NCBI GenBank assembly: GCA_016844745.1 | Contig: JAERMQ010000014.1 | Location: forward strand, 1 to 64,000 | DNA from: Ignavibacteria bacterium | GTDB lineage: Bacteria; Bacteroidota; Ignavibacteria; Kapaibacteriales; UBA2268 | Direction of reading: 5' to 3' | Length of the DNA stretch: 64,000 bases | Shown here: in pieces, positions 1 through 37,684 of the stretch | How positions within the stretch are numbered: the first letter of the stretch is position 1 | Layout: each line of letters begins with the position of its first letter | Notes under the pieces: model-generated | What the model was told of the DNA's origin: nothing | What the model saw: the letters and a program-made list of their open reading frames with translations, nothing else | The model's database searches: none | Made by a program: the position numbers and the translations under genes

Positions 1-3000
1 AGTTACACCGGAACCGGACGTAGAATATGTTTCGGTACTGCTTTGGCAAACCGATGTATTACCGGATATGCTTGGAGTCGGCAATGGATTAACCGTTGCT
101 ACTGCCGATGCACGCGTTGCGCTTTCGCAATTCGAATTATATTTCGATACATAGAACGTAGTCGAAGTAGTTATGGTCGGAGTTGCGAATGTACTGCCAT
201 CCGTTTGAAGTGGAGTTCCTCCCGTTGGTGCGCTGTACCATTTGTAATTCTCCCCTGCCTGAGCGCCGCTTACAGATAATGTTACCGAACCGCTGCCGCA
301 ACGAGAACCGCCTGTTGCTACAGGTTCGCTTAAGGTAGAATTAATCGTTGCTACTGCCGATGAACGCGTTGCGCTTTCGCAATTAGTTGTCGTATTGTAT
401 CTTGTTACGTAATAAGTAGTCGTTGTTGTCAGCGTTGGTGTAATGAATGTGCTTCCTCCGGTTTGCAATAATGTTCCTCCGGTCTGGGCTGAATACCATT
501 TGTAATCTTCACCTGTTATCGCGCCGCTTGCCGATAACGTCACCGAGCCGCTACCACAGCGCGATGCAGATATACCCGTTGCCGAACCCGGAAGTGTAAT
601 TAATGATACCGAAAGAGTAGCCGTATTGCTGCAGCCTGTTGTCGCTATTGTTTGGATTAATGTTACCACTCCTGTCGAGCCGGTTCCCCAAGTGATATTG
701 ACAGAGTTGGTTGTTGTGGAATTTATTGTTCCACCTGTTACAGACCATTGATTCGTTATTCCCGAACCTGATGTGCTGTATGTTTCTGTGCTGCTTTGGC
801 AAATTGATGAATTACCCGTAATACTCGGTATTGGTAGTGGATTAACCGTTGCTACTGCCGATGCACGTGTTGCGCTCTCGCAATTCGAATTGTATTTCGA
901 TACATAAAATGTAGTTGAGGTAGTTATTGTCGGAGTTGCGAATGTACTGCCATCTGTTTGAAGCGGAGTTCCTCCCGATGGTGCGCTGTACCATTTGTAA
1001 TTCTCTCCTGCCTGGGCGCCGCTTGCCGATAAAGTAACCGAACCGCTGCCGCAGCGTGAACCACCCGTTGCTACCGGTTCGCTCAAAGTTGAGTTAATCG
1101 TAGCTATTGCCGATGAACGAGTTGCGCTTTCGCAATTAGTTGTCGTGTTGTATCTTGTTACGTAATATGTTGTCGTTGTTGTCAGCGTTGGTGAAATGAA
1201 TGTGCTTCCTCCGGTTTGCAATAACGTGCCTCCAGTTAGGGCTGAATACCATTTGTAATCTTCACCTGTTACCGCGCCGCTTGCCGATAATGTTACCGAG
1301 CCGCTGCCGCAGCGCGATGCAGATATTCCAGTTGCAGAACCCGGAAGTGCTATTAGAGTCACAGATAAAGTAGCCGTATTGCTACAGCCGGTTGTCGCAA
1401 TTGTTTGGATTAATGTTACCACTCCTGTCGAGCCGGTTCCCCAAGTGATACTGACAGAGTTAGTAGTTGTAGAATTTATTGTTCCGCCTGTTACAAACCA
1501 TTCATTAGTTACACCCGAACCTGATGTTGAATATGTTCCTGTTGCGCTTTGGCAAACCGATGTATTACCTGTTATGCTCGGTGTTGGCAGCGGATTAACT
1601 GTTGCTACTGCAGAAGCTCGCGTTGCACTTTCGCAATTAGAATTATATTTCGATACATAGAATGTTGTCGATGTTGTAATTGTAGGAGTAGCAAAGGTAC
1701 TGCCGTCGGTTTGAAGAGGAGTGCCGCCCGATGGTGCGCTGTACCATTTGTAATTCTCCCCTGCCTGAGCGCCGCTTGCCGATAAAGTAACCGAACCGCT
1801 GCCGCAGCGTGAACCACCCGTTGCAATTGGTTCGCTTAATGTTGAGTTAATCGTAGCTATTGCCGATGAACGAGTTGCGCTTTCACAATTAGTTGTCGTA
1901 TTGTATCTTGTTACGTAATAAGTAGTCGTTGTTGTCAGCGTTGGTGTTATGAATGTGCTGCCTCCGGTTTGCAATAACGTGCCTCCGGTTGCGGCTGAAT
2001 ACCATTTGTAATCTTCACCTGTTACCGCTCCACTCGCTGATAACGTCACAGAACCGCTGCCACAGCGTGATGCCGCTATACCCGTTGCCGAACCCGGAAG
2101 AGTAATTAATGATACCGAAAGAGTTGCCGTATTACTGCAGCCGGTTGTCGCTATTGTTTGGATTAATGTTACAACTCCTGTCGAGCCTGTTCCCCATGTT
2201 ATGCTGACAGAATTTGTCGTTGTTGAATTTATCGTTCCACCGCTTACAGACCATTGATTAGTTACACCGGAACCGGACGTAGAATATGTTTCGGTACTGC
2301 TTTGGCAAACCGATGTATTACCGGATATGCTTGGAGTCGGCAATGGATTAACCGTTGCTGCAACTGCCGATGCACGTGTTGCGCTCTCGCAATTTGAATT
2401 ATATTTCGATACATAGAAAGTTGTCGATGTTGTAATTGTAGGAGTTGCGAATGTGCTTCCATCTGTTTGAAGAGAAGTTCCTCCCGTTGGTGCGCTGTAC
2501 CATTTGTAATTCTCCCCTGCCTGAGCGCCGCTTGCCGATAATGTTACCGAACCGCTGCCGCAACGTGAGCCGCCCGTTGCTACCGGTTCGCTCAAAGTTG
2601 AGTTAATCGTAGCTACTGCCGATGCTCTTGTTGCACTTTCGCAATTCGTTGTCGTATTGTATCTCGTGACGTAATAGGTCGTGGTTGTTGTCAGGGTTGG
2701 AGTAATGAATGTGCTGCCGCCGGTTTGCAATAAAGTTCCTCCGGTTGCGGCTGAATACCATTTGTAATCTTCACCCGTTATTGCTCCGCTTGCCGATAAG
2801 GTCACAGAGCCGCTGCCACAGCGCGATGCTGATATACCCGTTGCCGAACCCGGAAGTGTAATTAATGATACCGAAAGAGTAGCCGTATTACTGCAGCCTG
2901 TTGTAACTATTGTTTGGATTAATGTTACAACTCCTGTCGAGCCGGTTCCCCAGGTGATACTAACAGAATTAGTTGTTGTTGAATTAATCGTCCCGCCGGT

Positions 3001-23592: not shown

Positions 23593-25821
23593 CTACGCCA
23601 CATCAAAATAATTATCACCCGAACCATAAGTTTTCTTATAATTCAATTTGATTATTTCATTCTCCGGCTTGCGCAGATGCGGGTCAGCATCGATAATTGA
23701 AAATACTTCACGTCTGGCAGCAGTGATTATATCGCCGTCAGTCACCAAATCAGCATATTTGAATTCCGGCAGCCCTGCCTGACGTGTTCCCAATATATCA
23801 CCGGGTCCCCTCAATTTCAAATCAATCTCGGAAATTTTAAAGCCATCTGTCGTTTCTTCCATCGTTTTTAAGCGAACAAATACTGCTTTCCTGTCCTCCT
23901 GGGCAATGGATTTGTTCTTGAGGGGATATTGGAACTTGTCTTTGGTAGCAAGGTAGCAATAAGACTGCTCAGAGCCGCGCCCCACCCTGCCGCGTAATTG
24001 ATGCAACTGCGATAATCCGAAGCGCTCGGCATTTTCAATCAGCATTACAGTAGCATTGGGAATATCAATTCCCACTTCGATTACGGTAGTTGCAACGAGA
24101 ATGGAAAATTCCTTATTCAAAAATTTGAGCATCGTTTCGTCTTTCTCATACCAGAACAATTGCCCATGCAACAAACCACAAGGTATTGAGGGAAAAATCT
24201 CAGTCCTCAATGTCTCGAAATGCTCCGTAGCAGCTTTCAATTCAAGCTTTTCACTTTTTTCAACCAATGGATAAACGATAAATGCCTGTCTGCCTAATTG
24301 AATTTGTGATTTGATAAAATCATGAACCGAAGGCAATTGACTCTCGAATGTTATCACAGTCCTGATTGGCTTTCGATTTGCCGGCATTTCCCGAATTATA
24401 GATACATCCAAATCGCCGTAAACCGTCATAGAAAGCGTTCGTGGTATTGGGGTAGCCGTCATTACCAAAACATGTGGCGAAGAGCCGTCTCCTAAAGAAT
24501 TTGAGGCTAATTTACGCAATTCTGCGCGCTGTGCAACCCCGAAACGATGCTGCTCATCTATAATTACGTAACCCAGCATGTTATATTCGATTTCGGATTG
24601 GAACATTGCATGAGTTCCGACAATAACATTGGTTTTACCGCTTTGAATATCTTCAAGTGCCTGCCGGCGAACCTTCACACGCTGGGCTCCAACTAATTGG
24701 GTTATATGCAATCCTAATGGTTCTAAGTAGTTTTTCAGATTTTTGTAATGCTGCTCGGCTAATAATTCAGTCGGAGCCATGAAAGCAGTCTGCAAGCCGT
24801 TATCAATTGCCATTAATATTGTTAATATCGCAACTATGGTTTTACCCGAACCTACATCTCCTTGCAGGAGACGATTCATCGGACTTCCCGAATTAAAATC
24901 TTCATCAATCTCTTTGAGGACTTTTTTCTGGTCGCCGGTTAATTTGAATGGAAGAGTATCGAATAGTTTTCGTGCTAAAGAGCTTCTGTTCGGTAATTTG
25001 ATACCGGCTTCCTTTATTTTCATTCCTTTGTAACGCAATCCGATAAATAATTGGAAGTAAAATAGTTCTTCAAATTTTATCCTGTATTTTGCTCGTTCGA
25101 TTTCATGAGGATTCTGAGGGAAATGCAACTGGCTTATAGCGCTTTTCGCCGATGGTAATTCAAATTTTTTAATTATAAATTCCGGTAGGGTTTCCATGAT
25201 TTCAGTTTCCAATTCCTCGAAAGCCTTTGCTACCACACTACTCATGAGTTTTTTGGAAATACCGGCGCTTTTCATTTTATCGGTAATCCGGTATTTAGGC
25301 AGAATTGCTCCTTCCCGATAGAGTTTTTCATCTTCGGATTCGATTACCTCAATATCAGGATGATTGAAAACTACTTTTCCATAATCAAATTCAGGTCTGC
25401 CGCTGACAGCAACGAAATCACCCTCTTTATAAACTTTATCGAAATATTCGGACCGGTTCCAAAACACTACCTTTGCAATAGCGCCACTGCCGTCATTCAG
25501 GGTTAAAGAGAGCATTTTCCTTTTACCACCGAGTTGACGGACGTTTTTAAGAGTAATATTTGCAAGGATAGTAATTTCAGAATAAAACTTAATATTTTCG
25601 GGTTTTGAGTCGGAAGTAAATAAATCGTCCTTCTGGAGGCTCATCGTTAATTCACGAATGGAAGATGCCGTATTCCTGTCGATATATGAGCGTGGAAAAT
25701 AATAAATAAAGTCTCTTAAAGTAAGAAGTCCTTCTGCAGCAAAAGCCTCTGCACGATGTGGTCCAATTCCTTTAGTGAATTGAAGAGGACTTATTTCTTT
25801 AGTAATTTTTGCGTCTGGCAT
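23593..25821 (-). CDS. recG: ATP-dependent DNA helicase RecG
   Basis: This 742-residue protein is a little longer than E. coli RecG (693). It has the N-terminal wedge/OB region (ISPLQFTKGIGPHRAEAF; later MLSLTLNDGSGAIAKVVFWN), then the helicase core: Walker A GDVGSGKT at about 321-328, DEQH box in VIIDEQHRFGVAQR, motif III VMTATPIPRTL, and motif VI QLRGRVGRG. The C-terminal RecG signature SEIDLKLRGPGDILGTRQAG is present. It remodels stalled forks and branched DNA. The ATG at 25821 is followed by the conserved N-terminus, and upstream lies only a low-complexity tract, so its promoter is not clear. Confidence 0.96.
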   Translation of the reverse strand: MPDAKITKEISPLQFTKGIGPHRAEAFAAEGLLTLRDFIYYFPRSYIDRNTASSIRELTMSLQKDDLFTSDSKPENIKFYSEITILANITLKNVRQLGGKRKMLSLTLNDGSGAIAKVVFWNRSEYFDKVYKEGDFVAVSGRPEFDYGKVVFNHPDIEVIESEDEKLYREGAILPKYRITDKMKSAGISKKLMSSVVAKAFEELETEIMETLPEFIIKKFELPSAKSAISQLHFPQNPHEIERAKYRIKFEELFYFQLFIGLRYKGMKIKEAGIKLPNRSSLARKLFDTLPFKLTGDQKKVLKEIDEDFNSGSPMNRLLQGDVGSGKTIVAILTILMAIDNGLQTAFMAPTELLAEQHYKNLKNYLEPLGLHITQLVGAQRVKVRRQALEDIQSGKTNVIVGTHAMFQSEIEYNMLGYVIIDEQHRFGVAQRAELRKLASNSLGDGSSPHVLVMTATPIPRTLSMTVYGDLDVSIIREMPANRKPIRTVITFESQLPSVHDFIKSQIQLGRQAFIVYPLVEKSEKLELKAATEHFETLRTEIFPSIPCGLLHGQLFWYEKDETMLKFLNKEFSILVATTVIEVGIDIPNATVMLIENAERFGLSQLHQLRGRVGRGSEQSYCYLATKDKFQYPLKNKSIAQEDRKAVFVRLKTMEETTDGFKISEIDLKLRGPGDILGTRQAGLPEFKYADLVTDGDIITAARREVFSIIDADPHLRKPENEIIKLNYKKTYGSGDNYFDVA

Positions 25822-25875
25822 TATTTTGGAATAGTATATGGTGGGATTATCCGAACTATTCTCTAATTATTTTTT

Positions 25876-26080
25876 CACTTTCACTTTTCACTTTCACTTT
25901 CACTTTTCACTTTCCACTTTCACTTTTCACTTTCACTTTTCACTTTCCACTTTCACTTTTCACTTTCACTTTCCACTTTCCACTTTCACTTTCACTTTTC
26001 ACTTTTCACTTTCCACTTTCCACTTTCCACTTTCCACTTTCCACTTTCACTTTCACTTTTCACTTTCACTTTTCACTTTC
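25876..26080. repeat. Low-complexity tract of CACTTT/CACTTTT/CACTTTC words
   Basis: About 205 bp made almost only of the words CACTTT, CACTTTT and CACTTTC in irregular order (AAAGTG on the minus strand). It lies between the recG start and the stop of a lipoprotein gene; long apparent ORFs over it are artefacts of composition. Confidence 0.9.
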
Positions 26081-26081
26081 A

Positions 26082-26849
26082 CTAATAGTACGTGTATTCG
26101 TATTTTATTTTCTTAAGAATTTTGCCGGATATATCGAAAATACTTTCGTATAAAATAAATCCATAAGTATTATAACTGTACGTTGATATAGTCTGAATGG
26201 AGCCACTCGAATTGAAAGTAAAGACTTTAATAGATGTCAGTTTATCATTAGTATAAGTAAGGCTATCACGCACAGAATATTTGCCGTCGGGTTCCAGGTT
26301 TGTAATTCTCTCATTCAGGTAGCCATTATTGTTATAAACATAAGAGTATTTTGTTTCGCTCTTAACATTTTCACTGTAATTAATAATGGTTTCTTTAACT
26401 ACATTGCCTTTATTATCATAATCGAAAACCTTGCAGGTTAGGGTATCGCCTTTTGATGAAGTTTTTGTTTCTTTTTCAACTTTTCCGTTATTGTTTAATA
26501 TGTGGGTTAATTTATATGAGGAATCAACTTGTCCGGCAGAACCAAAAAAAGTTACCGCCTCGAATTTAGCATTATTATCATAAGAAAAGTCTGATTGTGA
26601 TTTTAAAATCCCGTCATTGGAATAATTTTCCGAATGTAATAGTTTTCCGGTTTTATCATATTCTTTAAAATTGATTTTTGTCAGTTTATTTTGTGTAAGT
26701 GTATCAACATACCATTGAGCGACAGTCCTTATCTTTGGAACCTGAAAGTCGGAACTAAGTGGTGAATTTTGCATGCCACAGCTATTAATCAATACTATTA
26801 AGATTGTATTAATTAAAATTGCTGCTATATTTACCTTTTTAACTTTCAT
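26082..26849 (-). CDS. Putative lipoprotein with YD/RHS-like sequence repeats
   Basis: The 255-residue protein begins with a lipoprotein signal ending INSC (Cys24). The rest is a run of short beta-hairpin units of the form YDNNGKVEKETKT, YDNKGNVVKETI, YNNNGYLNERIT, YTNDKLTSIKVF, YNTYGFILYESI, resembling the YD (RHS-type) repeats of cell-surface proteins. It is far too short for a toxin-delivering RHS protein. It is likely exposed at the outer membrane or in the periplasm. Its stop codon directly touches the low-complexity tract. Function unknown; it belongs, by direction, with the envelope genes downstream of the ECF sigma factor. Confidence 0.68.
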   Translation of the reverse strand: MKVKKVNIAAILINTILIVLINSCGMQNSPLSSDFQVPKIRTVAQWYVDTLTQNKLTKINFKEYDKTGKLLHSENYSNDGILKSQSDFSYDNNAKFEAVTFFGSAGQVDSSYKLTHILNNNGKVEKETKTSSKGDTLTCKVFDYDNKGNVVKETIINYSENVKSETKYSYVYNNNGYLNERITNLEPDGKYSVRDSLTYTNDKLTSIKVFTFNSSGSIQTISTYSYNTYGFILYESIFDISGKILKKIKYEYTYY

Positions 26850-27052: not shown

Positions 27053-27682
27053 TCATTGTTTATAATTAAAAAGTTCCCAGGTTATTTTTATTTTTTCTAA
27101 TTTATTATTTTTTTTGATATTGAACAAGTTCTCATATTTTATAATACCGAAAAGGACGGATATGTAATAATTCTCCTCGTTGAAGGAACTATTTAATTGA
27201 TTTTTAAAAGAATACTTAATACAAACATATTTACCGCGGGGTACTTCAATAGAATTATTCAAGCCATTGACATCGACTAATATCGAATCATAAATCTTAT
27301 AGCTCGCTCCATCTTCAACTGGATATTTAAAGTATAAAGCAGGAGAAGATGAGCCAAGAGAAGATTGTTGAAAAACCCTGATACCATCATTTTGATTATT
27401 ATAAAAGCAGTAAGTCCCCCTTTCGGTAAATGAAGGCATGCCATACCACCACACACCGTTTATGCTGGTATCCTTATCAATTATCATAGTAAATAAAGAA
27501 CCGGAATCGGAAATGTCATCATAAGCTATTTTTTTACCGGTAGAATCCGTTGCTTCGACTGTATAGGTCCAGGATTTCCCCAATTCCATCGGGAAGAACT
27601 GTTCAGGTTCATTATCTATAATTACATCGGAAGAACATGCAAAAGTTAAAATAAATATAATTATGGAAATTCGCATTAGCAT
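27053..27682 (-). CDS. Hypothetical lipoprotein, 209 residues
   Basis: It opens with a short hydrophobic segment ending TFAC-SS, a plausible lipobox (Cys at about position 16). The mature part begins PEQFFPMELGKSWTYTV, resembling the start of the 272-residue lipoprotein two genes upstream (NNYFPLTMDNYWIYQTS). This motif, in which a secreted lipoprotein opens with FPL/FPM...W.Y, is common among hypothetical proteins of Bacteroidota and Chlorobiota. The rest looks beta-rich. Only 6 nt separate it from the preceding gene, so they share an operon. Start may be 27682 or 27676; no clear Shine-Dalgarno. Confidence 0.65.
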   Translation of the reverse strand: MLMRISIIIFILTFACSSDVIIDNEPEQFFPMELGKSWTYTVEATDSTGKKIAYDDISDSGSLFTMIIDKDTSINGVWWYGMPSFTERGTYCFYNNQNDGIRVFQQSSLGSSSPALYFKYPVEDGASYKIYDSILVDVNGLNNSIEVPRGKYVCIKYSFKNQLNSSFNEENYYISVLFGIIKYENLFNIKKNNKLEKIKITWELFNYKQ

Positions 27683-27688
27683 ATCACA

Positions 27689-28726
27689 TTAAAAGAATGA
27701 GCCGCCCGAGCCGAAATATATTTCCAGGTTTAATACCAAACCATGTGGAAAGGATTTATCAGGCTTTTTTTGAGGATTCTCGTTGTAATATCCACCGGTA
27801 TATCCTTTCATATTATGAATACCAAAGAAGTATTTTGCATGAATCCTGAGGGATACAGATGAAGTTCTTCCAAAAATATAACCACCACCAAGAATTAGCA
27901 TTAATCCATCCCCGGTATAATCCGGGTCTGAAAATACCGAGTTATTCTCCGAACTATCATAAGATGTATGCCCTAAACCTAATCCTCCACCAATAAAAAA
28001 TGAATTAGCGAGAGATTCCAATGGTTTATATGCTTCAATGCTAATGTTTGTCATATATGAATTCCCTGTAAAATACATTTGCCCGTGAATTTCAAACAAT
28101 AGGGTTCGGGCATCATATAACCAAAAAATACCTCCGCCTGCAGAAAATGGGTCTTCGGTAAAGGCATCCGACATGAAAACCGTACCACCCAATGCCATAC
28201 CAAAAGAATTAATGGATTTCATTTGTTTTAGCTGGCGGGATTCATAATCGGTAACGCTATAAATATCACCATCAGCGCCAGCCTTTTTTTCGGTACCAAT
28301 CTGACGTGCAATTTTTTGCAAAATTGGGTCCATATCATCCGGGGATGAAGCTTTCAATCTGTCTTTCCATCTTTGAGATGCATCGCTTGTATTGTATAAC
28401 GTTATAGAAATAATAACGGTTTCGCCCATACGATTCAAATCGCCTACCAGGAAATACGGGCAATCGGCGGCTTTGGCTAATTCCTGTATTTGATTGATTG
28501 GAAGCTGGCTCAAAGTTGAATCGTTTTTTTGAGACATTACGATAGTAAATGAGCCTTGTTCATCTACGTAGTTTTTTAATAATTTGGATGTGGAATAACG
28601 ATAATCCGAATGTACATTAATGAGTTCGAATTGTGGAAAGTAAACTTTCTCTGCAGCCAGGATAACAGAACCTGAAGTGACTAATAATCCGAGCAGGAGT
28701 ATCCCAAGGTTAATTGTTCTTTTCAT
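27689..28726 (-). CDS. Secreted protein with TolB/CsgG-like N-terminal part and outer-membrane beta-barrel-like C-terminal part
   Basis: This 345-residue protein has a signal peptide (residues 1-25, ending ILAAE). Residues about 28-145 contain FTIVMSQKN...IQELAKAADCPYFLVGDLNRMGETVIISITLYN, the pattern of TolB-N/FlgO-like domains that bind other envelope components. Residues about 170-345 are amphipathic beta strands rich in Gly and aromatics (GMALGGTVFMSD, SFFIGGGLGLGH, LMLILGGGYIFG) and the chain ends in Phe, as outer-membrane barrels often do. Function unknown; likely a periplasm-facing sensor or an envelope structural protein made with the sigma/anti-sigma pair upstream. Confidence 0.6.
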   Translation of the reverse strand: MKRTINLGILLLGLLVTSGSVILAAEKVYFPQFELINVHSDYRYSTSKLLKNYVDEQGSFTIVMSQKNDSTLSQLPINQIQELAKAADCPYFLVGDLNRMGETVIISITLYNTSDASQRWKDRLKASSPDDMDPILQKIARQIGTEKKAGADGDIYSVTDYESRQLKQMKSINSFGMALGGTVFMSDAFTEDPFSAGGGIFWLYDARTLLFEIHGQMYFTGNSYMTNISIEAYKPLESLANSFFIGGGLGLGHTSYDSSENNSVFSDPDYTGDGLMLILGGGYIFGRTSSVSLRIHAKYFFGIHNMKGYTGGYYNENPQKKPDKSFPHGLVLNLEIYFGSGGSFF

Positions 28727-28875: not shown

Positions 28876-29694
28876 TTAATTAATTCTACACCTCAATAAT
28901 TTTCTAATATAATTATGAGGTTGATTATGTTCATCGATGATAGTGCCTGATGCTTGGGTTAATCCGATATTTCTTTCAAAAGTAACTTCGAAATTCAATT
29001 CCTGCCTGATAATAGTCTGGTCATTCAAATATCTTAAACTTCTGTCTTTATAAAAAGTCACGTAATCAGGTGCAATGAGTTTGTAAAGCCATTTAATTGA
29101 AAAATTATAAGTAAATATTGTTGTAATACCTGCATTATCGTAAGTATGAGGGTTTGAACTTTTTACGGTTTCATTTGAATTATTGCCCGATACACTAAGT
29201 TCATTTTTCACTTTAGCGTTACTATTTAACCAATTTCCAATTGAATCTAAATAAGGTATCACTTCTCCGGATGTAGAATCAATAACCGACCAGTTATTTT
29301 TAAAATTTGCTAACATTCGCCAGGCAGGTTTCAAACTATTAGTAAAATTATTTGGAATTGTATCGATAAAAGGTTCCATTAGTTTAGAATATAATAAGAT
29401 TTTACTGTTATCAAACAGGAAGTATGCCAAAAGATATAGGCTGCCATTGCGGTAAACGGTTATTTCAGTAGCCTTTTTCCCATCGATAATTTTATTTCCG
29501 GTTACTACCAAAGAATCAATAGAGGTTTTAGAATCCAATGATGTTTGGTAAATCCAGTAATTATCCATTGTTAATGGAAAATAATTGTTCGGTTCGGTTG
29601 AAACATCAGCAGGAGCAAGATTCATCGGGCTTTCGCAACCGGTGAATAATACAATCAGCAAAGTTACAAGAATTGCTATAATATAAATTTTCAT
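28876..29694 (-). CDS. Hypothetical lipoprotein, 272 residues
   Basis: The lipoprotein signal MKIYIIAILVTLLIVLFTGC ends in a good lipobox (LFTGC). I chose the ATG at 29694, with GAGGG about 5 nt before it, rather than an upstream in-frame start at 29709. The mature protein begins with a region like that of the 209-residue lipoprotein (NNYFPLTMDNYWIYQTS) and is otherwise unknown, with many Asn/Ser and no other Cys except one near the end (RKLLRCRIN). It follows the anti-sigma-like gene closely. Confidence 0.65.
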   Translation of the reverse strand: MKIYIIAILVTLLIVLFTGCESPMNLAPADVSTEPNNYFPLTMDNYWIYQTSLDSKTSIDSLVVTGNKIIDGKKATEITVYRNGSLYLLAYFLFDNSKILLYSKLMEPFIDTIPNNFTNSLKPAWRMLANFKNNWSVIDSTSGEVIPYLDSIGNWLNSNAKVKNELSVSGNNSNETVKSSNPHTYDNAGITTIFTYNFSIKWLYKLIAPDYVTFYKDRSLRYLNDQTIIRQELNFEVTFERNIGLTQASGTIIDEHNQPHNYIRKLLRCRIN

Positions 29695-29728: not shown

Positions 29729-30961
29729 TTAATAATAAAAAGCAATACCGTAATTAAGTCCGATTTTCGGTGAATTGAAAATCTGCTTCTGGTATTGATA
29801 TGTTAAATTATGAAATTCGATGCCAAGCAATAATTTTATATCTTTATAAGGTGAATAGGAAATACCTGTCATTGCCCTTGTTACTAATCCGACAACATTT
29901 CCCCCAATTGATAATTGTCCGAATGGCCTGATTGTACTGCCTTCATTCAATTGAAATCTAACTGAAGCCGAATATGTCCTGAAATTAGGTTGCTGTTGAT
30001 AAATATTATTCAAACCCAAATCATCAACGCCTTTGTAAACCTGGAAAAAAGTTTCCTGGCGTATATCAAGTCCGAAAGAAAATTTTTCAGAAAGATTGTA
30101 GAATACCGCTAATCCCGTATTGTTGAATTTTGCATATTCATCGGGTGCAATAGTCGCAGCAGGTAAATTCCAAACAGTTTGATTCCGTACTTCAAGAGTA
30201 ATTCCAAATGATTTATCGGATGCTACCGTATTTTTAGAAATAATTTCAGGAGAATGTTGGTAATTATTAATTTGAGCTATTTCAGAACGGTGATTGCTCA
30301 ATTGTTCCATTGTCAATTTATTACTTACATTAACAGGTGATTTTAACAATTCAATTTCTTTTGCATCAGCTACCTCATTTGAAAATTCTTCTTTTATTTG
30401 ACCTGTCTGAATATGAACCATATTTTTCAAAGGAGCATTATTTTTTAATTCTTCATTAACAATACCAACAACTGCTTCATTGGTTTTGTTAATTGAATTA
30501 TCATTTTTTATTACAGATTTTTGTTCGGGTATATCACGAGGGGTATTTTCCATACTCTGAAGAATACCCTTTTCGTTTAAATTCGGATTGTAACCCTGTC
30601 TTGGAAAAATTGCAAAGTTGAGCGCTGTAACAATAATTGCTGTGGCAAGGCTCGACATGACAGCCAATCCGTATTTACCAAAGAGTCTGCTCTTCATCGG
30701 TGATTTGGAATTAGCCTGGATTGGATTAAAGGGTAATGATACCGGCATACCAATTCCCAAAGTCGAGAAAATAGACGCAGTCGATGCAATTGACGGGTCA
30801 AAATAACGGGAATTGCTCATTACGGAATTTTTTATAGCTAATAATTGACGAAATTTGCCTCTCAATTCTTCATTTGCCGATAGTTCGAGAAACAAACTTT
30901 CTTCATTTTCCGGAGCAATTTCACCGTTAGAAAAGTCGTTTAATATTTGGTTGTAATCCAT
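29729..30961 (-). CDS. Anti-sigma-like membrane protein with C-terminal outer-membrane beta-barrel-like domain
   Basis: A 410-residue protein of unusual build. Residues 1-60 (YNQILNDFSNGEIAPENEESLFLELSANEELRGKFRQL) are like the cytoplasmic part of anti-sigma factors and zinc-finger-less receptors; a single membrane segment follows at about residues 98-118 (GLAVMSSLATAIIVTALNFAIF). A polar linker of about 130 residues leads to a domain of about 150 residues built of alternating amphipathic strands (ITLEVRNQTVWNLPAA, GLAVFYNLSEKFSFGLDIR, ASVRFQLNEGSTIRPFGQLSIGG) ending ...GIAFYY, like small outer-membrane barrels. It lies 42 nt after the ECF sigma gene, the standard place for the cognate anti-sigma factor. 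How one chain could span both membranes is unclear. Confidence 0.68.
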   Translation of the reverse strand: MDYNQILNDFSNGEIAPENEESLFLELSANEELRGKFRQLLAIKNSVMSNSRYFDPSIASTASIFSTLGIGMPVSLPFNPIQANSKSPMKSRLFGKYGLAVMSSLATAIIVTALNFAIFPRQGYNPNLNEKGILQSMENTPRDIPEQKSVIKNDNSINKTNEAVVGIVNEELKNNAPLKNMVHIQTGQIKEEFSNEVADAKEIELLKSPVNVSNKLTMEQLSNHRSEIAQINNYQHSPEIISKNTVASDKSFGITLEVRNQTVWNLPAATIAPDEYAKFNNTGLAVFYNLSEKFSFGLDIRQETFFQVYKGVDDLGLNNIYQQQPNFRTYSASVRFQLNEGSTIRPFGQLSIGGNVVGLVTRAMTGISYSPYKDIKLLLGIEFHNLTYQYQKQIFNSPKIGLNYGIAFYY

Positions 30962-31003
30962 TTGGGTAATCCCTTTATATCATTTTATTATTTAATTTCA
31001 TAA

Positions 31004-31564
31004 TTATTTACATAGGTCCTTGACGTAAGGTTCCAATATACTCATCATCTTATCCCTTGCACGGTCAACACGTGATTTGGCATTGGAAAGCGTTATCCCG
31101 CAAATTTCTGCAATTTCCTGGTATGGCAAACAGTCCAATTCCCGCAGGATGTATGCTTCGCGATATTTGTCATCCAATAAATCAAGCGATGTTAGAATCA
31201 GTTTGAATAGTTCGTTTTTGTCGTAATCCCGTGAATAGTCGGAAATAATATCATGTCCGTCGAATGGAACAGTCATGTGCTTCCTGTTGAAGTAATTCAT
31301 GCAAAGATTCCGGGCAATAGTATAAATCAGTCCTCCGAGATTCCCTGCATGAGTTCTGCCGCTAACACTATTATAAAATTTGACAAAAGTTTCCTGGAAA
31401 ATATCCTGTGCATCGTCACGGTCGGCAATCATTCCAATGCAGTACGTATTAATCCTACGTGCATACCGGTTATAAATTTCGGTAAAAGCAGCGTCTGCCT
31501 TGGGCTTTGAGCCTTGCATCATTTCCAGCAATCCCTGGTCGGTATATGTTTCAAGCTTTTGCAT
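31004..31564 (-). CDS. ECF-type RNA polymerase sigma factor
   Basis: A 186-residue sigma-70 family protein of group 4. The sigma-2 region is IYNRYARRINTYCIGMIADRDDAQDIFQETFVKFY (DAQDIFQETF is the family hallmark), with the GLIYTIARNLCMNYFNRK promoter-melting segment. Sigma-4 is LDDKYREAYILRELDCLPYQEIAEICGITLSNAKSRVDRARDKM with a helix-turn-helix. A linker holds GHDIISDYSRDYD. It likely responds to an envelope signal through the downstream anti-sigma-like protein and may drive the lipoprotein/barrel genes that follow. No self-promoter could be assigned. Confidence 0.92.
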   Translation of the reverse strand: MQKLETYTDQGLLEMMQGSKPKADAAFTEIYNRYARRINTYCIGMIADRDDAQDIFQETFVKFYNSVSGRTHAGNLGGLIYTIARNLCMNYFNRKHMTVPFDGHDIISDYSRDYDKNELFKLILTSLDLLDDKYREAYILRELDCLPYQEIAEICGITLSNAKSRVDRARDKMMSILEPYVKDLCK

Positions 31565-35506: not shown

Positions 35507-37612
35507 TTAATGCTTTACTATTATTTTCATGAAATATTTCTGTTCCCCGGTTTTTATAATAATTATATAAAAACCTTCGGCAAAGCCACTGGTATTTAAA
35601 TTCAATCTTCTTACATTACGTGAAGCAAAATCGTAATCATAAACCGTTTCACCAAGTATATCCTTAATTTGAATGGAAAGTCCGTCAGGTAATAAATCAC
35701 CTAAATCAACATTCAATTCTGCATCCACAGGATTCGGGAAAAGGTTTAAATTATTAATTATATCCGGATTTGGGACATTTGTTTCAAAATCATAATTATT
35801 TGATATTGGCGATGAACAACCGTTTGAATCGGTGATTTGCAGTGTATAAACAGCTTTTAATTTAGGAATATAAAAATACTGCCCCTTGGCTTCAGTTAAT
35901 TCCACACCTCCGATAAACCACTGACAACCGAAGGTGGAACTTGAAAATAATGTATCACCACTGCGGCTAATTGTGGGTTGAGGAGGCTTATCAAAAACAG
36001 TAACCGGTAAGAAAATTGTATCCCTTGTATTTATTTGTTTGGTTATTTCTACTAAATTTACAGTACCGGAACCCGATGCAGACCATAAGACATTTATTAT
36101 TTCACCGGTTGAATCGCCTATGATACTCCCATTTGTACCATTAATAAACCATTCATGGTTTTTACCTTCTTTTTTCTGGGTAGAATAAACTTTGGAATCC
36201 CCCGCACAAACCTTCTCTGAACCTGTAATAACAAGGCTTGAGCCTTTTTTAATTGTGATTGGAATCTTGCTTGAATCTTTGCATTGTGTGACTAAATTAA
36301 CCTGATTAACCTGCAAACTTCCAACTCCAGCCACTCCCCAAAGAATGACTACAGTAGATTGATTGGAACTTCCCTGAATGGAACCGCCTGTAACTGACCA
36401 AATATTTGATATGTTTGAAGGAGTATTAACAGTATAAACCGAAATTTCATTATTAAACGGTTCTTTAGTACCACTAATAGCCGGAGCCGGTAGAGGATTG
36501 ACATTAACTTTCAGTAAAAATGAATCACTACAACCGGTTTGGGAAATTACTTTTATTAATTTTACTTCACCGATAGGAAAATTTTTCACCCATTGAATTG
36601 TTATTTCGGTTTCTGTTTCTTTAAGTCTTATTCCGTATTTCGGTTCCCAGTAATTTATTATTCCAGGTGTTTTAACGGTAGTATATTTTATTATCTCCCC
36701 AGGGCACGCATTAAGAGGACCATTTACTTCAACCTTAGGGATTGCAAGCACCCTAACGGGAATCGTATAAGTGGCACTGCATCCTGTTGCCGTTTTGGTT
36801 TGAATAAGCGTAACGGTATAAGTTCCTGAATTTTCCCATGATATTGGAACTTTAGTTAAAGTATTTGAATATGGTGATGTGCCTCCGGGGAAAAGCCAAA
36901 GGTTTGCATATCCTGCCGGTACGGACGTTGAATATGTGTGGCTCGTTCGAGCACATACCAAAGTGTCGCCTGCAGCCATAATCATTGGTTTGGAATTAAT
37001 TACAACATTGTAATAAGCCATCTTTTCACATAAACCCGACGGTATTCTTTGTTTTAAAGTAACTATTCCACTACTAAAGGATTCCCAGACAACTGTTACT
37101 GTTCCACCTGTACTTGAACTAACTATATGACCGCTTGTAACCGACCACTCATTAACAAAGCCTGTTGGAACTGATGATGCAGTGTAATTTGCAGGTGTAC
37201 CTTCGCATACAGTTGCGCTTCCTTGTGTTATTTGAGTATTTGGTAAATTGGCAATGGTAATATCAACACCGTTATCACTTCCCGTAACTGTAGGCACACT
37301 TCCGGTAACACGAACCCGGTATTGAGTTCCCGGAGTTGCGTTAGCAGGAATATTCGCATCAATCACTGCGGATGTGTTTCCGGGCCACTGTCCTATATTC
37401 ACAGGACTTGTAAATGTACCGAAAGGACCTGAAAGCTGTGCGGTAAATATATTTCCGGCATTAAAATAATCGCTCGTTGTAAAAGTAATGCTGAAATTTG
37501 CTCCGGGGCATAACATAATATCCGACACCGGACCCGTTGTAATGGTCGGCTGAGCGTAAATTTTAGCGATAAATAGTAACATTAAAACACAAAGTTTTAA
37601 AGTAATTCTCAT
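35507..37612 (-). CDS. Secreted protein of PKD/Ig-like domains with T9SS sorting domain
   Basis: A 701-residue protein with a signal peptide (MRITLKLCVLMLLFIAKIYAQ) and six or seven PKD/Ig-like domains of the same sort as the giant protease at the left edge (VSDIMLCPGANFSITFTTSD; VTGSDNGVDITIANLPNTQITQGSATVCEG; NPLPAPAISG; SGTGTVNLVEI). The C-terminal 80 residues are a T9SS sorting domain: NLFPNPVDAELNV ... GFYIIIIKTGEQKYFMKIIVKH. It should be exported by Sec, then moved to the surface by T9SS and probably anchored. I chose the ATG at 37612 instead of 37639 because the signal peptide starts there. No enzyme domain is visible. Confidence 0.88.
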   Translation of the reverse strand: MRITLKLCVLMLLFIAKIYAQPTITTGPVSDIMLCPGANFSITFTTSDYFNAGNIFTAQLSGPFGTFTSPVNIGQWPGNTSAVIDANIPANATPGTQYRVRVTGSVPTVTGSDNGVDITIANLPNTQITQGSATVCEGTPANYTASSVPTGFVNEWSVTSGHIVSSSTGGTVTVVWESFSSGIVTLKQRIPSGLCEKMAYYNVVINSKPMIMAAGDTLVCARTSHTYSTSVPAGYANLWLFPGGTSPYSNTLTKVPISWENSGTYTVTLIQTKTATGCSATYTIPVRVLAIPKVEVNGPLNACPGEIIKYTTVKTPGIINYWEPKYGIRLKETETEITIQWVKNFPIGEVKLIKVISQTGCSDSFLLKVNVNPLPAPAISGTKEPFNNEISVYTVNTPSNISNIWSVTGGSIQGSSNQSTVVILWGVAGVGSLQVNQVNLVTQCKDSSKIPITIKKGSSLVITGSEKVCAGDSKVYSTQKKEGKNHEWFINGTNGSIIGDSTGEIINVLWSASGSGTVNLVEITKQINTRDTIFLPVTVFDKPPQPTISRSGDTLFSSSTFGCQWFIGGVELTEAKGQYFYIPKLKAVYTLQITDSNGCSSPISNNYDFETNVPNPDIINNLNLFPNPVDAELNVDLGDLLPDGLSIQIKDILGETVYDYDFASRNVRRLNLNTSGFAEGFYIIIIKTGEQKYFMKIIVKH

Positions 37613-37684
37613 TTTAATACCCAAAATATTTATTAACATTAAACTTACAAATATGCAACTTTTTTTTATAAAAACAGTAACATT

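Follow-up and report, generated by a model that had tools for sequence, protein, structure and literature searches.

We propose that a three-gene locus of an Ignavibacteria bacterium encodes an envelope sensor, in which an ECF sigma factor would be held inside the cell while an outer-membrane barrel and a lipoprotein stand outside. We infer the binding and the signalling, and consider this reading reasonably likely. The locus lies in the window, the whole 64,000-nucleotide stretch of DNA analysed here. The preliminary description of this DNA had paired the sigma factor gene with an anti-sigma-like gene, and that pair stands; it had overlooked the lipoprotein gene at 28876-29694. As a lipoprotein gene follows in nearly every related locus, the probable unit is three genes, not two:

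31004-31564, minus strand: ECF sigma factor, 186 residues (Pfam and NCBIfam; in the clade of Dma-linked sigma factors of Kapaibacteria)
29729-30961, minus strand: putative Dma-like dual-membrane anti-sigma protein, 410 residues (model, family conservation)
30698-30961, minus strand: residues 1-88 of this protein, helical cytoplasmic anti-sigma-like domain (helices 3-67, Pfam matches in the family, co-variation with sigma)
30608-30694, minus strand: residues 90-118, predicted single inner-membrane helix (model; hydropathy across the family)
30206-30607, minus strand: residues 119-252, predicted disordered periplasmic tether (pLDDT 38-53; family lengths; composition)
29732-30205, minus strand: residues 253-410, predicted eight-stranded outer-membrane barrel with a C-terminal aromatic residue (model, Foldseek, strand pattern)
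28876-29694, minus strand: lipoprotein, 272 residues, lipobox LFTG/CESPMNLAP, proposed partner (predicted LolA/LolB-like half-barrel; position after the Dma-like gene conserved in relatives)

Pairing of the sigma factor and barrel protein genes

The 186-residue product matches Sigma70_r2 (5e-9) and Sigma70_r4_2 (7e-15) in Pfam, and sigma70-ECF in NCBIfam above the cut-off. It is small and has sigma-70 regions 2 and 4 only; judged by its sequence, it is an ordinary ECF-type sigma factor, and the two databases agree with its first assignment. Its closest named relatives come from Candidatus Kapaibacterium, which NCBI places in Bacteroidota, from similar MAGs and from two entries labelled Chloroherpeton; the window's genome is accordingly taken to be that of a Kapaibacteria-type Bacteroidota.

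The sigma gene ends 42 nt before the start of the 410-residue gene, both on the minus strand and both located where the preliminary description had put them. In all 85 loci of the non-redundant, full-length members of the 410-residue protein's family, the gene directly upstream encodes an ECF sigma factor, with a median gap of 17 nt. Such conservation excludes a chance pairing of the sigma factor and the barrel protein. Searching with sigma alone gave the same picture: all 53 loci with E below about 1e-21 have the barrel protein as next gene, and the more distant ECF factors found in this way do not.

Architecture of the 410-residue protein

An AlphaFold2 model, built on an alignment of 35 relatives, contains helices at residues 3-67, one helix at 90-118, a tether at 119-252 (pLDDT 38-53) and a barrel at 253-409 (pLDDT 92-98). 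These are exactly the four parts first read from the sequence: an anti-sigma-like N-terminus, one inner-membrane helix, a long linker and a barrel-like domain, the last now predicted as an eight-stranded barrel of outer-membrane type. With the model as query, Foldseek placed NspA first (E 7e-7), then OmpA, Ail and further outer-membrane proteins including OprF. Hydrophobic and polar residues alternate along the strands above the level of shuffles (p 0.0008). Charged or polar side chains, among them E382, R362, Q349 and K399, are retained on the inward face, and the outward face is hydrophobic. The last residue is aromatic in 66/85 family members versus 74/583 other ORFs. Model, Foldseek and strand pattern thus describe an amphipathic antiparallel barrel with a known outer-membrane protein fold, and the modelled domain is very likely inserted in the outer membrane.

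The N-terminal domain carries the motif LIxDFxDGxLDxxxExxLFxxLAxNxELR. Pfam and NCBIfam searches returned no family match for the window protein. Among single relatives, the best matches are to RseA_N at 8.8e-5 and to OMP_b-brl at 9.4e-5; RseA_N is matched by 2/35 members and zf-HC2 by 4/35, the window protein being in neither group. The tether, estimated at 115-254 residues across the family, has at least 115 in all measured members and is therefore long enough to span the periplasm. It is rich in Asn and Ser and free of Cys in 84/85 members.

One chain thus probably binds sigma inside the cell with its N-terminal end, while its other end forms a small barrel in the outer membrane. The preliminary description had suggested such a single path; the predicted barrel speaks for it, as do sigma distances that track the N-terminus and not the barrel (see below). 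A soluble periplasmic sandwich at the C-terminus, which it had named as the opposing outcome, was not predicted: AlphaFold2 and Foldseek, run as the test, gave no support for it. The model, the Foldseek matches, the strand alternation and the C-terminal aromatic residue rule against that fold, which we regard as extremely improbable. In all likelihood the 410-residue protein inhibits its sigma factor. Were it a positive regulator of the FecR kind, or an outer-membrane protein whose N-terminus is vestigial, the lack of a curated family match in the window protein would be understandable, and co-variation reveals a partnership, not the sign of it. That possibility is nonetheless improbable in view of the RseA_N matches among relatives and the strict pairing with the sigma gene; moreover, all tested proteins with such an architecture are repressors (PMC13088901, PMC9308784).

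A lipoprotein gene in third position

The gene after the anti-sigma gene encodes a lipoprotein, recognised by its lipobox, in 67/75 loci, against 48/468 other ORFs of the same stretches (Fisher 7e-45); at least 7 of these 48 are additional lipoproteins of those very operons. The lipoprotein is a new and probable third component of the Dma-like system.

In most linked lipoproteins a short, distinctive motif follows the lipid cysteine, typically as C-x-D-S-L-G-[IL]-E-x-N-V or C-x-S-P-L-D-[IL]-D-x-P-R. Its leave-one-out score has a median of 10 in linked and -11 in other lipoproteins (p 3e-16). The window lipoprotein scores weakly at -1.6, versus this linked median and a control 95th percentile of -2.9. 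We rejected the motif as a general signal of Kapaibacteria: it is absent from other lipoproteins of these loci and from most stand-alone ones with the same domain.

The remainder of the lipoprotein is highly variable among loci, with Ig-like, META or unassigned domains. In the window it is modelled as a half-barrel, best matched by LolA/LolB-like lipoproteins of the Bacteroides type and weakly by RseB and MucB. Relatives of this domain are also found apart from any anti-sigma gene, and most such copies have other post-cysteine sequences, often S-D-D-D.

In Bacteroidia, a lipoprotein comes next in about 7 of 17 inspected loci (DUF4943, NigD-like and others), without the motif of Kapaibacteria. 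A NigD-like lipoprotein, identified by eye, directly follows the Dma-like gene in the Bacteroidia loci L151, L153 and L154; this ties NigD proteins, as they occur in the Dma1/Reo regulons, to the third-gene position.

Downstream of the window lipoprotein, 27689-28726 (minus strand) encodes 345 residues with, by eye, a CsgG/LppC-type periplasmic-like N-terminal region and barrel-like C-terminal strands. Another lipoprotein, at 27053-27682, comes 6 nt after it, and both genes possibly share one transcription unit with the window lipoprotein. Elsewhere in the window, 25809-26153 is a low-complexity repeat stretch, TTTCACTTTC-like, which results in spurious overlapping ORFs, and 35507-37639 (minus strand) encodes a secreted protein of 710 residues whose C-terminal end resembles a type IX secretion sorting domain.

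Co-variation between the parts

In Mantel tests on 67-69 triples of sigma factor, Dma-like protein and lipoprotein, whose permutations do not model the tree, sigma distances follow those of the N-terminus (0.56; 0.55 given the barrel) and not those of the barrel (-0.08 given the N-terminus). This is as expected if residues 1-90 bind sigma. The lipoprotein motif follows the barrel in the same tests: 0.42 overall, 0.38 given sigma, N-terminus and helix, and 0.36 (p 5e-4) given sigma, N-terminus and the lipoprotein remainder. With the N-terminus, given barrel and sigma, it reaches 0.03. The motif-barrel link also holds for distant pairs. It concerns mainly the extracellular half of the barrel given the periplasmic half (0.35), the reverse giving 0.11; a weaker link joins the barrel to the lipoprotein remainder (0.18). 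At the level of residues, 24 of the 40 top motif-barrel pairs fall in the extracellular half (background 45%), a figure that is at most suggestive, as the sequences are too few to rely on. Together, the sigma-N-terminus and motif-barrel links form the pattern that two separate contacts would give.

Two other explanations have to be weighed against a contact between motif and barrel. On the DNA, sigma adjoins the N-terminal half and the lipoprotein adjoins the barrel half, so recombination in the tether can imitate both co-varying blocks. The link could then be a by-product of block inheritance with tether breakpoints, and the motif a sorting signal in place of a docking site. The two blocks do match the gene order. 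S-D-D-D after the cysteine occurs in many stand-alone lipoproteins of this domain family and resembles known Bacteroidota surface-export signals, so the post-cysteine region holds sorting information. However, a sorting signal fits poorly with the absences of the motif described above, nor would block inheritance explain why the motif, compared with the lipoprotein remainder, is the closer match to the barrel's variation; we find this explanation somewhat unlikely. It is also unlikely, in our judgement, that the lipoprotein serves simply as an output of sigma and that the barrel alone senses, for instance, its own assembly by BAM or outer-membrane damage. ECF factors usually transcribe their own operon, and bt_1557 (DUF4943), which stands third in the dma2 operon in Bacteroides thetaiotaomicron, is up by log2 6 in a dma2 mutant (PMC13088901). 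A Reo pair of similar build from Phocaeicola vulgatus answers envelope stress (PMC9308784), and the aromatic end of our barrel resembles that of a BAM substrate. Yet a mere output leaves unexplained why the motif should mark Dma-linked lipoproteins specifically and follow the barrel, not sigma, and why the remaining lipoprotein domain varies so much. Deletion of bt_1557 in the dma2 mutant left vesiculation unchanged (PMC13088901); the result is silent on signalling upstream of Dma2.

Proposed mechanism

In the three-gene sensor that we favour, the ECF sigma factor would be retained at the inner membrane by the N-terminal domain of the 410-residue protein, whose disordered tether would span the periplasm and whose C-terminal barrel would sit in the outer membrane. 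The lipoprotein encoded by the next gene would dock on the barrel via the stretch right after its lipidated cysteine, probably on the outer face; we give this contact an even chance. Its variable domain would decide which signal is felt. The trigger would be a disturbed barrel-lipoprotein unit, be it by a ligand, failed barrel assembly or envelope damage. The disturbance would alter the tether or the N-terminus, most likely by periplasmic and then RseP-type cleavage, and the released sigma factor would transcribe its own operon. Proteolytic release is a tentative element, taken over by analogy from RseA-type systems. RseP is encoded in the window's genome, which is uninformative because RseP is nearly universal.

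More speculatively, these proteins may be dual-membrane anti-sigma factors of a second, possibly independent lineage and act in a modular three-part sensor: interchangeable lipoproteins would attach to the barrel from outside via their conserved N-terminal motif, so that one chassis, repeated in many copies per genome, could lead different surface signals directly to different sigma factors. If this is true, it would account for how information passes along a flexible tether, with the signal entering via the lipoprotein-barrel unit at the surface, and nature would have arrived at one two-membrane design with other components. The question bears on how Dma-type proteins sense, in Bacteroides too.

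Distribution across genomes

Sigma/anti-sigma matches occur in 56/60 relatives. The window's genome holds eight Dma-like pairs and one relative up to 24 matches, nearly all lipoprotein-linked; the family offers a natural experiment, in which co-variation assigns each protein half to its partner and points to short segments. The eighth pair of the window's genome (locus L169 on contig C9, 639-1202 and 1192-2718, plus strand) is divergent, its anti-sigma protein having 508 residues, and has no lipoprotein gene downstream. In locus L073, a second, shorter pair (916-2389, minus strand; anti-sigma of 322 residues) lies close to the main pair on the opposite strand. Two MAGs labelled Desulfobulbaceae and Bradyrhizobiaceae (L049 and L066) also encode the Kapaibacteria-type system; these bins are probably mislabelled or contaminated.

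Comparison with known systems

The dual-membrane anti-sigma architecture and the general idea are already known from Bacteroides Dma and Reo. In B. thetaiotaomicron, Dma anti-sigma factors share this four-part build and repress the neighbouring sigma factor (PMC13088901); when Dma/Reo-type factors are lost, vesiculation or protection against envelope stress increases (PMC13088901, PMC9308784). The preliminary description was right that such hybrids exist in Bacteroidota. It had also held that their mechanism was not worked out, whereas this has been partly explored, Dma factors being known to repress sigma (PMC13088901, PMC9308784).

The window protein has both the four-part architecture of Dma and a sigma gene as its neighbour. 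As in Dma, the sigma gene is directly upstream, an N-terminal sigma-binding domain (here putative) is followed by one helix, a long disordered tether and a C-terminal barrel, and each genome holds several copies. A third gene likewise belongs to the dma2 operon, and relatives of bt_1557 (L145, L146) have a lipobox. In contrast to Dma, about 88 residues precede the helix here, versus about 45, and the lipoprotein motif differs.

For a comparison of sequences, 16 Bacteroidia members were found by synteny with DUF4943 and further searching from those loci. A PF13568 search yielded mostly other barrels; the B. thetaiotaomicron proteins themselves lie outside this set. Against these 16, hhalign found no homology to our family alignment (probability 5% overall, 0.2% for the N-terminus, 9% for the barrel). 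The cognate sigma factors of Dma belong to group ECF21. In the tree, sigma factors of Kapaibacteria form a clade (99/87) separate from the Das-like sigmas of Bacteroidia (100/98). Membership in the Bacteroides Dma family by descent is thus unsupported. Judging from profiles and tree, the proteins of Kapaibacteria are perhaps a Dma-like variant of independent origin; they may also be very deeply diverged Dma relatives. On present evidence they probably work like Dma, in a version that is distinct, expanded and apparently unrelated to that of Bacteroides.

EcfO-Reo of Bacteroides fragilis and P. vulgatus likewise joins an ECF sigma factor to an anti-sigma factor with a C-terminal barrel; it is tied to envelope stress and has NigD lipoproteins in its regulon (PMC9308784, PMC13114119). 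It differs from our system as Dma does, Reo itself lying outside the sequence comparison.

The order of sigma, anti-sigma and a third envelope protein recalls RpoE-RseA-RseB and AlgU-MucA-MucB, and some relatives of the 410-residue protein match RseA_N. The LolA/LolB-type half-barrel of the window lipoprotein weakly matches RseB and MucB, although lipoprotein domains at other loci are unrelated. RseA lacks the outer-membrane barrel predicted here, and RseB is a periplasmic protein, whereas the proposed third component here is a putative outer-membrane lipoprotein. FecA-FecR-FecI also places an outer-membrane barrel, an inner-membrane regulator and an ECF sigma factor in one signalling path. 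There, however, barrel and anti-sigma are separate proteins and FecA is TonB-dependent; here both are parts of one chain, and the barrel is small, without TonB-receptor features.
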